A stretch of 46,908 bases of DNA from Patescibacteria group bacterium (lineage in GTDB: Bacteria > Patescibacteriota > Patescibacteriia > CAIXNZ01), in contig JAQTMG010000007.1 in the NCBI GenBank assembly GCA_028714455.1, forward strand, positions 1-46,908, given 5' to 3'. Positions 5,217 to 31,638 of this stretch are shown here, piece after piece (position 1 is the first letter of the stretch; each line of letters starts with the position of its first letter). The notes beneath the pieces were generated by a model. That model did not search any database. It was not told where the DNA came from and saw only the letters and a program-made list of their open reading frames with translations. Both the position numbers and the translations under genes were made by a program.

Positions 5217-6692
5217 TTATTTCTCCGGCCTCATGGTCGGGAAAAAGACCACGTCACGAATTGAGAGCTGATCGGTTAAAAGCATAAACAAACGGTCAAT
5301 GCCCAGGCCAAAACCTGCCGTAGGCGGCATGCCGTGCTCCAGGGCGCGGATAAAGTCCTCATCAATCATCTGCGCTTCCTTATCCCCTGCCTCGCGCATC
5401 TTCATCTGGACTTCGAAACGCTGTCTTTGATCAATCGGATCATTTAATTCCGAGAAGGCATTGCCAACCTCGGCGCCCAAAACCAGGACTTGAAAGCGCT
5501 CGGTTCTATTGGGATGCGCTGGATCTTTTTTAGCCAAAGGCGAAACAGCCACGGGATGGTTGAATAAAATTGAAGGCTGGATAATATCTTTGCGGATAAA
5601 TCTTTTGTAAACGCCGTCAATAATTCTGCCAAAACTGGTCACCCCGTTTTTTTGTAAGGCCTTCATTTCAGCGGCTAGTTCAGCATCATTTTCGGAAACA
5701 AAATCCAATAAATCAGCGGCGTAATTATCTTTATCCAAATCCACGCCTGTTTTTTCTTTAAAAATTTCAACGTAATTAATTTTCGGCCAGGGTTTTTTAA
5801 AATCAATAGCTGCGCCCTGATATTCAAATTTTAGCGTGCCAAAAGTATTTTTAATGATCTTGGTGTACATATCCTCAATCATTTCCATTAAATCATTCCA
5901 ATCAGCATAAGCCCAATATAATTCCAACTCGGTAAATTCCTGCAAATGCTGGGGACTCATACCCTCGTTTCTAAAAACTCGACCCAGCTCATAAACCTTT
6001 TCATAACCGCCGACAATCAGGCGCTTCAAGTGCAATTCCAAAGAGATGCGCAAATAAAAATCAACGTCAAGAGTGTTGTGATGAGTGACAAATGGTTCGG
6101 CTTCAGCGCCGCCTGGCACTTCTTCCAAAACAGGAGTCTCCACTTCAATAAAGCCATCATTGTCTAAATAGCTTCGAAACTCTTTGATAAATTTGGCTTT
6201 CTTAATAAATAAATCCCTAACATCCTGATTCATGATCAAATCAAGATAACGCTCGCGGTAGCGGGTTTCTAAATCTTTGAGGCCATGCCATTTTTCTGGC
6301 AAGGGCAAAATCGCCTTGGCCAGCAAAGTAAATTTTTTCACCAAAATTGATATCTCGCCTTTTTTGGTTTTGAAAATCTCGCCTTCCACGCCGATAAAAT
6401 CACCAAGGTCGATTTCTTTCATGAAAAATTTATAATCCTTCTCCCCTACTTTTTCCTGCTGCAAAACAATCTGCATCTTGTTTGTTTCATCTTGCAGATG
6501 GCAAAAACAAATCTTGCCCATGTCTCTTTTAGTCATGAGCCGGCCGGCGGTTTTAATCTTGGCGCCGATCTTAGCCGAAATAGCTTCCTTTAAACTCTGC
6601 TTCTTTTCAAATTTATCGGGATATGGATTTACACCCGAGGCCATGATTCTTTGCAGTTTTTCTAAACGGATTTTGCGTTCATCTTGAGCCAT
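5217..6692 (-). CDS. lysS: lysyl-tRNA synthetase (class II)
   Basis: 'RYRERYLDLI', 'EVETPVLEEVPGGAEAEPF', 'VYELGRVFRNEG', 'GFGLGIDRLFMLLTD'. Confidence 0.95.
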   Translation of the reverse strand: MAQDERKIRLEKLQRIMASGVNPYPDKFEKKQSLKEAISAKIGAKIKTAGRLMTKRDMGKICFCHLQDETNKMQIVLQQEKVGEKDYKFFMKEIDLGDFIGVEGEIFKTKKGEISILVKKFTLLAKAILPLPEKWHGLKDLETRYRERYLDLIMNQDVRDLFIKKAKFIKEFRSYLDNDGFIEVETPVLEEVPGGAEAEPFVTHHNTLDVDFYLRISLELHLKRLIVGGYEKVYELGRVFRNEGMSPQHLQEFTELELYWAYADWNDLMEMIEDMYTKIIKNTFGTLKFEYQGAAIDFKKPWPKINYVEIFKEKTGVDLDKDNYAADLLDFVSENDAELAAEMKALQKNGVTSFGRIIDGVYKRFIRKDIIQPSILFNHPVAVSPLAKKDPAHPNRTERFQVLVLGAEVGNAFSELNDPIDQRQRFEVQMKMREAGDKEAQMIDEDFIRALEHGMPPTAGFGLGIDRLFMLLTDQLSIRDVVFFPTMRPEK

Positions 6693-6762
6693 ATTTTGAT
6701 TCTTACGATTAGTAATTATAATGTAATTTTACCTAAATTTAAGGAAAAGGTCAAAAAGATAA

Positions 6763-6927
6763 GGCGAAAACGGCGTTAATGTAGAGACGCGAGATCTCGC
6801 GTCTCTACAACGGGTTTTAAAAACGACGTAGAGACAGGGTATGCCCTGTCTCTACAATAACGACAACACACAAACGTAGAGACGCATAGCAATGCGTCTC
6901 TACAACGGCGGCAACACCGTTTTCGCC
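6763..6927. repeat. composite repeat: outer inverted repeat enclosing three 28-bp palindromes
   Basis: GGCGAAAACGGCGTT (6763-6777) against AACACCGTTTTCGCC (6913-6927), 14/15 complementary; palindromes at 6781-6808, 6828-6855 and 6876-6903. Confidence 0.9.
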
Positions 6928-6934
6928 AGAATCA

Positions 6935-6960
6935 AAAAGGCCGAATAAATCCGGCCTTTT
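6935..6960 (-). terminator. intrinsic terminator downstream of greA
   Basis: AAAAGGCCG...CGGCCTTTT with flanking T/A-runs. Confidence 0.65.
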
Positions 6961-6977: not shown

Positions 6978-7442
6978 TTACTTTACATCCAGTATCTTAT
7001 ATTCAATTATACCTGCCGGAGCATCAAGATTGACTTTATCGCCCACTTTTTTGCCCAAAAACGCTTCGCCAGCCGGCGATTCATTGGAGATAAACCCCTT
7101 GAGCGGATCTGCCTCGCTTGGGCCAACGATAGTGAATTCTTTTTCCTGCCCATCAAATTTGACGTGAACCGTGCAACCGACCTCAATGCATTTCTTTTTG
7201 CCTTTTTCACCAGAAATTATGACGGCGTTTTTAATCACCTCTTCAAGCTCCCTTATTTTAGCTTCGTTCATGCCCTGCTCGTCTTTGGCCTCCTGATATT
7301 CGGCGTTTTCCGATAAATCGCCAAGTTTTAAGGCCTCTTCAATTCTTTCAGTGATTTCTCGGCGCTTGACGGTTTTTAAATCGTTAAGCTCTTTCTTGAT
7401 TTTTTCCAACCCCTCGGGCGTAAAATATTTTTCATCACTCAT
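6978..7442 (-). CDS. greA: transcription elongation factor GreA
   Basis: 'YFTPEGLEKIKKELNDLKTVKRREITERIEEALKLGDLSENAEYQEAKDEQ'. Confidence 0.95.
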   Translation of the reverse strand: MSDEKYFTPEGLEKIKKELNDLKTVKRREITERIEEALKLGDLSENAEYQEAKDEQGMNEAKIRELEEVIKNAVIISGEKGKKKCIEVGCTVHVKFDGQEKEFTIVGPSEADPLKGFISNESPAGEAFLGKKVGDKVNLDAPAGIIEYKILDVK

Positions 7443-19051: not shown

Positions 19052-19618
19052 TTATTTATTTAAATTTTTTGGATTATTTTTATCAAATTGCCAATTTACC
19101 GGATTATTGGCGATATATCCTTTTATGCGAGCATAATCCTCGTCGTTTTTGATGATATGTTCGTAATAATTATCTTGCCATAGAAAATCTAAATCGTTTT
19201 TGTGACAATTTCGCGAAACAGCGCCCTTAAACGTGTTGATAATTGACGATAATGATTTCGGTTTTAAGGGTCCGAATCGATTCGTCGTAGAGACGCGGTG
19301 CACCGCGTCTCTACAATTTTTCAAATCAAAATCATTATCTTTGATTACAATTATACCGTGAAAATGGTTAGGCATTATTACAAATTCGTCTAATTCAATA
19401 TAGGGCCTTAATTTTTGTGTTTTCAACCATTCATCCAAAACAATTTGACCAATTTTCGACAAATAAACATTATTATCCTTATCACTAATTTCACCTTAAC
19501 AACATCTTCTATCTTTTGTGCAAATGGTTACATAATAAAACCCCTCATCCGCGTAATTCCAATGGCCCAGACGTGTTGTTGCGATTCTGAATTTATTTTT
19601 AAAATACTCGTCCCCCAT
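19052..19618 (-). pseudogene. Y1 (REP-associated type) transposase pseudogene with in-frame TAA at 19496-19498
   Basis: Continuous frame from the ATG at 19618: MGDEYFKNKFRIATTRLGHWNYADEGFYYVTICTKDRRCC*GEISDKDNNVYLSKIGQIVLDEW...MPNHFHGIIVI. Confidence 0.85.
19287..19314. repeat. 28-bp perfect palindrome inside the transposase reading frame
   Basis: GTAGAGACGCGGTGCACCGCGTCTCTAC, encoding RDAVHRVST on the minus strand. Confidence 0.95.
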
Positions 19619-25456: not shown

Positions 25457-25537
25457 GGGCGAAAACGCCAAAAACGTATTTTGTAGAGACGCATTGCAAT
25501 GCGTCTCTACGGCGTTTTACGCCGGGCGTTTTCGCCC
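25457..25537. repeat. composite repeat with one 28-bp palindrome
   Basis: GGGCGAAAACGCC 25457-25469, perfect palindrome 25483-25510, GGCGTTTTCGCCC 25525-25537. Confidence 0.92.
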
Positions 25538-25713: not shown

Positions 25714-25758
25714 AAAATTATTAAAAAGTGAAAATCCTGGTCATTGTCATCCTGGATC

Positions 25759-25780
25759 GGCATGACGCACTTTAGTGCGT
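25759..25780. repeat. terminal hairpin of Y1 transposase unit (left)
   Basis: GGCATGACGCACTTTAGTGCGT: 7-bp stem ACGCACT/AGTGCGT, TT loop. Confidence 0.75.
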
Positions 25781-26319
25781 TACTGATTAAACGGAGTATA
25801 ATCAATTACTGGATAATTTTCAAAACAGTCGCATAAAAACTCTTTGCCATATGTCTTTAAGTAATCTCTATAGCTCGACCATTCATATTCGTATGTATCC
25901 TCCACGTAACCATGTTTTACAGGGTTGTGGTGATTATAATTTATATGCGTCCAGAAGCTATTCTCGTCACCAATAATCTTTTCTCTATACTGATACCAAA
26001 TTTTTCTTCCTTCCTCATTTTCAAATTTATTTAATAAAAATGAGCTTTTACCATTTATTTCCTTAATCAATAAAGATAATTTTTTACCCTCGGGCATCTC
26101 AATAACTAATTGGTAATGATTATCAAGTATCACCCATGAATATAGCTTTACTTCATATTTATTTATTGCTTTAAATAAACAATCCACTAATAAATTTTTC
26201 TTTTCGCTATTATTAAAATACTTTATCCCCCCTAATGTCCTTGAAACAATAAAATAAATTGTGTTATCCAAATAAATATGCGGAGGTCGATGAATATTTC
26301 TTTCAATTGGGTAAATCAT
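25780..26319 (-). CDS. Y1/IS200-like (REP-associated type) transposase homologue
   Basis: 'IYFIVSRTLGG', 'SWVILDNHYQLVIEMPEGKKLSLLIKEING', 'HINYNHHNPVKHGYVEDTYEYEWSSYRDYL'. Confidence 0.85.
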   Translation of the reverse strand: MIYPIERNIHRPPHIYLDNTIYFIVSRTLGGIKYFNNSEKKNLLVDCLFKAINKYEVKLYSWVILDNHYQLVIEMPEGKKLSLLIKEINGKSSFLLNKFENEEGRKIWYQYREKIIGDENSFWTHINYNHHNPVKHGYVEDTYEYEWSSYRDYLKTYGKEFLCDCFENYPVIDYTPFNQ

Positions 26320-26331
26320 ATTTAGATAGTA

Positions 26332-26353
26332 ACAGTCTAAAGACTGTCATGCC
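26332..26353. repeat. terminal hairpin of Y1 transposase unit (right)
   Basis: ACAGTCTAAAGACTGTCATGCC: 7-bp stem ACAGTCT/AGACTGT, AA loop, GTCATGCC foot. Confidence 0.75.
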
Positions 26354-26377
26354 GACTGTCATGCCGACTGTCATGCC
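26342..26377. repeat. 12-bp tandem repeat x3
   Basis: GACTGTCATGCC three times without mismatch. Confidence 0.95.
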
Positions 26378-31594: not shown

Positions 31595-31638
31595 GGGCGA
31601 AAACGCCCTGTACAATGTCAATAAGGGTGTTTTCGCCC
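31595..31638. repeat. outer inverted repeat without an internal palindrome
   Basis: GGGCGAAAACGCCC 31595-31608 and GGGTGTTTTCGCCC 31625-31638. Confidence 0.88.

Follow-up and report, generated by a model that had tools for sequence, protein, structure and literature searches.

RAYT-associated double-foot REP palindromes nested in an outer inverted repeat between lysS and greA of a Patescibacteria genome

Described REP systems and the lysS–greA locus

REPs linked to REP-associated tyrosine transposases (RAYTs) have been described in several forms. For TnpA_REP subclass 2.4 (Quentin et al. 2018, PMC6006769; Bertels RAYT group 4), a 'double foot', GTAG...CTAC, and a REP within the transposase gene have been reported. 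GTAG-tagged REPs (Di Nocera et al. 2013, PMC3733652) carry an unpaired GTAG at one end and usually have loops of 2–4 nt, and REPINs or BIMEs (Bertels and Rainey 2011, PMC3116915) are inverted pairs of asymmetric REPs. Turnover of REP classes is known from syntenic RAYT genes of related strains, which are flanked by different classes (Nunvar et al. 2013, PMC3686654). In TIRtrons and TIRYT elements, inverted repeats adjoin the repeats of tyrosine transposases, and a composite of a REP and an unrelated hairpin has been noted in Pseudomonas (PMC3733652). RAYT chemistry on single-stranded REPs has been established for other groups, and the characterised TnpA_REP proteins contact a loop or bulge (PMC8266576). 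RAYTs examined in vitro recognise their REP through this feature; the way in which REPs disseminate is an open question in the field.

The locus considered here occupies positions 6763–6927 of a 46,908-nt stretch of DNA (the window), and its host genome is putatively a member of Candidatus Falkowbacteria. We consider it probable that the locus is a cluster of three double-foot REPs belonging to the RAYT/TnpA_REP subclass 2.4 system and enclosed by a larger hairpin of inverted repeats, that each family of REP centres is a copy lineage tied to a RAYT lineage whose own gene contains the matching REP in frame, and that RAYT cuts, joins, or exchanges the REPs. An earlier note on this DNA had reported three palindromes with the same arms and different centres, within an outer inverted repeat between lysS and greA, and the sequence was as described. 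The outer arms, read from the sequence, were GGCGAAAACGGCGTT (6763–6777, plus strand) and AACACCGTTTTCGCC (6913–6927, plus strand), a 15-bp inverted repeat complementary at 14/15 positions. All three 28-bp units inside it had identical arms, GTAGAGAC and GTCTCTAC, with differing 12-nt centres. These were a perfect palindrome with the family E centre GCGAGATCTCGC at 6781–6808, found by pattern search, a family B unit with one T-G pair (AGGGTATGCCCT, 6828–6855), and a family C unit with one A-A mismatch (GCATAGCAATGC, 6876–6903), none assigned to a strand. The term palindrome therefore holds fully for one focal copy and is slightly generous for the two that carry a non-Watson-Crick pair.

Both neighbouring genes lie on the minus strand, greA at 6978–7442 (GreA_GreB_N and GreA_GreB domains) and lysS at 5217–6692 (tRNA-synt_2 domain). 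A terminator-like hairpin of greA, AAAAGGCCGGATTTATTCGGCCTTTTT (6935–6960, minus strand, read from the sequence), was found directly upstream of the element with respect to transcription, and a candidate lysS promoter, TTGACC-17-TAAAAT (6726–6754, minus strand), downstream of it. The layout was the same in the sister genome G001, which lacks the element, so that the greA terminator is followed directly by the lysS promoter. Placed between terminator and promoter, the unit sits where disturbance would be least. Both sides of the focal unit were flanked by CTTTTTGA, compared to a single TTTTTGA in G001. In G002, a genome of the window's genus, a GGGCGAAAACG hairpin with a different palindrome starts at this site ahead of the contig end. 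Folding, a check proposed in the earlier note, was strong for the minus strand as RNA (−95.1 kcal/mol, z −12.1) and for the plus strand as DNA (z −11.3). An Rfam search of the window at gathering thresholds returned no match.

Several features agree with subclass 2.4 as described in the text of PMC6006769, namely GT[AG]G as 5′ foot and the complementary C[CT]AC as 3′ foot, which together form the palindrome base, an in-frame REP within tnpA_REP between the HuH and Y motifs, the Y motif YIxNNP, and dispersed copies. Features that this text does not describe are the Patescibacterium host, centre families within one genome tied to several co-resident RAYT lineages, a strict length of 28/29 bp without a loop, centre replacement at orthologous sites, and nesting within outer hairpins. 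With the GTAG-tagged REPs (PMC3733652) it shares the GTAG foot, stem variants that keep pairing, and positions near gene ends, in dimers and clusters, and within genes. In contrast to these, the GTAG here is base-paired to CTAC and a loop is absent, and the canonical arrangement of an unpaired GTAG and a stem with a 2–5 nt loop or bulge was not found. The CGTC-tagged REPs (Di Nocera) were also considered and set aside; many arms contain CGTC, but the CGTC-tagged families are without a transposase, whereas a RAYT is linked here. As with REPINs (PMC3116915), the units are RAYT-linked, non-autonomous, clustered, and form long hairpins; however, instead of two asymmetric inverted REPs with a spacer, three symmetric units stand in series within another inverted repeat. 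Unlike in the class turnover of PMC3686654, the exchange affects solo intergenic sites, and within the palindrome only its centre. Unlike TIRtrons and TIRYT elements, no transposase gene was found between the GGGCGAAAA repeats of the outer hairpins. A literature text search with the string GTAGAGACG gave no REP paper among the matches listed. The repeat is of a known kind and as a family ordinary; what is new is its loop-free symmetry, its nesting, and its centre swapping, and it is the loop-free symmetry and centre exchange that carry the interest.

REP copies, centre families, and RAYT genes

The pattern GTAGAGAC-N(4–30)-GTCTCTAC occurred five times in the window and in none of 100 dinucleotide shuffles. 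The genome-wide search for the arms that had been suggested earlier returned 27 perfect-arm copies in the 893-kb genome (16 contigs), always with a 12-nt centre, and three more that had diverged; a control pattern gave 0. The identification of these repeats as RAYT-associated double-foot REPs goes beyond the earlier note, as do two more window copies, one of them inside a transposase gene. The latter has the family A centre GCGGTGCACCGC (19287–19314, unstranded) and lies in frame within a RAYT gene. The other, of family C (25483–25510), is the single REP of a second composite (25457–25537, unstranded) with the outer arms GGGCGAAAACGCC and GGCGTTTTCGCCC. Centres in the window's genome (G000) fell into discrete families and were not random: A (GCGGTGCACCGC), B (AGGGTATACCCT and close variants), C (GCATTGCAATGC), D (ACGGCGCGCCGT), and E (GCGAGATCTCGC). 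Family E occurred in this genome only at the focal locus and was found inside RAYT genes of G004 and G006, two genomes of the same family. The same REP arms were present in 25/144 relatives with many further centres, nearly all self-complementary.

Across the six centre pairs of 28 distinct 28-mers, covariation was strong against shuffles and slid controls, with 55 cells altered on both sides (a mean of 12.7 in shuffles, of which 0/500 reached 55) and 99% of centre cells paired. Covariation of the centres, which the earlier note had reported for three units and proposed to examine in many aligned copies, thus survives. Three 29-bp REPs of G079 (C82:5975, C98:8364, and C106:4976; L128, L196, and L197) were identical except for the unpaired base at their centre (A/T or G). 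Near diverged REPs at L102 and L105, a third palindromic repeat, GCTSGAACACTTAAGTGTTCSAGC, was seen.

Domain and profile searches identified a subclass 2.4-like RAYT gene in the window (19052–19618, minus strand) with the motifs PNHFHG, WQDNYYEHI, and YIANNP. Its open reading frame 19052–19462 is a Y1_Tnp / REP-associated tyrosine transposase fragment, and the frame runs on upstream through a single in-frame TAA nonsense codon (19496–19498). The gene scored only 64 against the 80-bit cut-off of NF047646, because the searched part starts after its stop codon. Between its HuH and Tyr motifs the gene carries the REP at 19287, in frame. A profile built from such RAYTs (A1) was used to search the genomes and gave four genes in the window's genome; in all of them (4/4) a REP stood in frame at this place, with centre A in one gene, B in two, and C in one. 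Sister genomes had RAYT genes with the centres C, D-like, E, B, and others. The conserved motifs were PNHxH, WQ, YYEHI, and YIAxNP, and the proteins contained NH[IFV]H, WQ, and YIxNNP and belonged to the Y1_Tnp / REP_Tyr_transpos family. Several relatives deviated at one position of the Y motif (e.g., YIAHNP, YIALNP), and some had NHLH. A RAYT with the same REP was also present on the Candidatus Falkowbacteria contig CAIXNZ010000013.1.

Among the 144 relatives, REP and RAYT occurred together in 22, REP only in 3, RAYT only in 14, and neither in 105 (odds ratio 55, Fisher p 1e-13, phylogeny not corrected). The three REP-bearing genomes in which no RAYT of A1 type was detected were G001, G082, and G105. 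The centres themselves also linked the two, as for 39/53 solo centres a counterpart with no more than two mismatches was present inside a RAYT of the same genome (8/5040 permutations as high). RAYTs of different genomes with the same centre tended to group in the tree, as seen for the pairs with centres C and E and for both with GGTTAACC centres; the family B RAYTs gave no clean grouping. Within 1.5 kb of most RAYT loci the internal REP was the only one, and flanking REPs were found at a few, so that most of these genes differ from classical REPtrons, in which REPs flank the RAYT gene.

A second, different RAYT (25780–26319) was observed at 25757–26355 of the window, between the arms of an imperfect inverted repeat of 35 nt (TCGGCATGACGCAC...). 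A 31-nt sequence was repeated on both sides of it (25578 and 26474), as if it had been inserted into a gene with duplication, and beside it GACTGTCATGCC was present three times in tandem (26342–26377).

Centre replacement and loop-free symmetry

When flanks were compared across species, three occupied sites proved orthologous; in an unpolarised comparison, 3/3 differed in centre and kept the arms and host stem. C3:57362 (centre A) corresponded to C66 of G002 (centre C), and C16:2357 (centre A) to C110 of G002 (centre E). At the third site, C90 of G002 (centre GCGCCATGGCGC) corresponded to C42 of G001 (centre AGGGTATACCCT), and the adjacent 17-nt spacer was identical. Between C16:2357 and C110 the whole interior, including the spacers, was inverted relative to the flanking genes. 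L028 was considered as a further copy of the L083/L090 site, and its flanks did not support orthology. Wholesale centre replacement between sister species was observed at these three fixed sites, a small number; the way in which centres are exchanged or regenerated we infer. Such in-place replacement, seen in one bacterial family, documents REP exchange in nature, and the donors, sites, and candidate enzymes are defined.

An in-gene palindrome was found in 43/80 named RAYT loci from many phyla, mostly near mid-gene. The search required only eight outer pairs and allowed lengths of 22–40 bp, and the length was 28 or 29 bp in 43/43 loci. These loci yielded 38 distinct 28-mers, with complementarity at the innermost pair in 38/38 and at the next pair in 31/38. 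RAYT loci of the relatives had palindromes of 28 bp (47), 29 bp (13), 30 bp (1), and 34 bp (2), with the innermost pair complementary in 43/47; the base-shuffled control yielded one sequence in all. A hairpin needs a loop, and the innermost base pair cannot form in one. Since this pair is also complementary, selection on folding alone does not suffice. The earlier note had offered two alternatives, that folding is selected or that some mechanism regenerates palindromes. These remain the right question, and it is the first that falls short when taken alone. These REPs have neither loop nor bulge, and a large, multi-phylum group of RAYTs has a cognate repeat of this kind, 28 or 29 bp long, within the enzyme's own gene. 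Recognition would then be strand-symmetric, or the palindrome would be rebuilt whole on copying.

RAYT, an HuH/Tyr single-strand endonuclease, would recognise the folded REP at its GTAG/CTAC feet, cut there, and join REP copies into other hairpin sites or exchange them. The centre at a fixed site would thereby be replaced whole by another self-complementary centre, and the spacers would stay. Several observations stand against this reading: three genomes with REPs yet no detected RAYT of this type, the nonsense codon of the window's RAYT, the scarcity of flanking REPs at RAYT genes, the missing loop or bulge, and a nesting that is limited to one family. That RAYT activity is the cause of REP spread and exchange is likewise our inference from sequence, and the palindromes may be kept perfect partly or wholly by fold-back or template-switch copying. 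A bolder reading, which we offer tentatively and regard as fairly unlikely, is that double-foot REPs spread as half-palindromes or exchangeable cassettes. RAYT would swap or rebuild the whole loop-free 28-bp palindrome at a fixed site, and new centres would be self-complementary by construction and not through selection on folding. If this were true, recognition would be strand-symmetric, unlike that of the RAYTs characterised in the cited work. Loop-free symmetry together with in-place centre exchange makes the mechanism of REP dissemination directly testable.

Outer hairpins and alternative explanations

The earlier note had described the locus as a composite element. The outer repeat does enclose REPs, but the two layers are separable, and the outer hairpin also occurs without REPs, as at 31595–31638 of the window (GGGCGAAAACGCCC / GGGTGTTTTCGCCC, unstranded), or with other repeats. 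An outer inverted-repeat score of at least 20 was found at 33/35 intergenic REP sites in the window's family (one duplicated pair included), compared to 2.7% of random and 9% of intergenic points in the window. These points served as controls because GGGCGAAAA is common to different loci, which makes the pairing of own versus cross flanks a weak test. Most outer stems start with GGGCGAAAA/TTTTCGCCC, followed by variable complementary bases, and others are terminator-like, with an A-tract and T-tract. The intrinsic-terminator pattern of a GC-rich stem followed by a T-tract is present at several host stems and absent from the focal outer hairpin. Orthologous positions in sister genomes held other repeats, of the GTCACCCTGAG... 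and GTCATTCAGAGC... types, in a similar stem, or none. In further families that carry these REP arms, no outer hairpin was found. Nesting is therefore a property of this lineage and not of RAYT, and on the same ground the idea of outer hairpins as a general RAYT target was not upheld. The outer repeat was also rejected as a RAYT transposon end, as no GGGCGAAAA ends were found at the other Y1 genes examined and the second RAYT of the window has a different inverted repeat.

Four other explanations were weighed against a RAYT-driven exchange of REPs. The perfect dyads and conserved arms would suit a dimeric regulator that binds between lysS and greA, but this is highly improbable and was rejected because copies are dispersed over unrelated sites, lie inside RAYT genes, and vary in presence between sister species. 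Inverted-repeat copying, by fold-back or template switch from arm onto arm or from half-site to full palindrome, could both keep palindromes perfect and change their centres, with RAYT only as their original source. The complementarity of the innermost and next pairs, neither of which the search required, speaks for it, as do quasi-palindromic single-arm variants (GGGGTATACCCT, ACGGCGCGCCAT, and GTGGCATGCCGC) alongside fully symmetric relatives, and the interior inverted against its flanks at one site is what recombination between outer arms would give. At orthologous sites, however, centres jump to families that exist elsewhere (A to E, A to C), so a donor copy is needed and not self-copying alone, and we consider this account possible but rather doubtful.

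The other two explanations concern the outer hairpin. Its arms could be the GGGCGAAAA terminal inverted repeats of a 165-bp MITE-like element, moved by another transposase with the REPs as passengers. Species do differ at single sites in whether they have the whole hairpin (focal versus G001; C3:83780; C12:4896), the same TIR-like foot recurs at many loci, and CTTTTTGA stands on both sides of the focal unit against one TTTTTGA in G001. The three longer-spaced GGCGAAAA pairs examined, however, contained no transposase with such ends, the other two empty sites had no consistent target duplication, the interior and inner stem differed at every locus, and REPs were also found in unrelated stems (L022, L034, L038, L092, L099, and L113), which together make a MITE unlikely. 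It is quite conceivable, if short of probable, that the outer hairpins are intrinsic terminators or 3′-end stabilisers with insertion-tolerant loops, in which case their enrichment would reflect selection against insertions elsewhere and not targeting. Terminator-like host stems with an A-tract and T-tract (L022, L034, L038, L084, L099, and L113), a site where a minimal GGGCTTTTCGCCC-TTTT hairpin in G001 corresponds to an expanded one in the window's genome, and positions occupied by different repeats in different species are consistent with this. Against it, a separate terminator already stands beside the element at the focal and several other sites, and REPs with the same arms in other families are not in hairpins.

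Other repeats and composites were noted in the course of the analysis. A widespread repeat (GTCATTCTGAGCGAAGC... / GTCACCCTGAG...CTCGAAGGGTG), possibly the REP of the second RAYT lineage, was seen in similar hairpins in the window's genome and sister genomes (L100, L153, L160, L165, L168, L173, L176, and L286). In another family, the same arms lie within a repeated unit of ~130 bp beside a TCATTCTGAAT motif, with no hairpin (L180–L188, G077). Two composites of one genome, L023 and L030, had >40 bp of outside flank in common, in inverted orientation, a duplication that exceeds the element.
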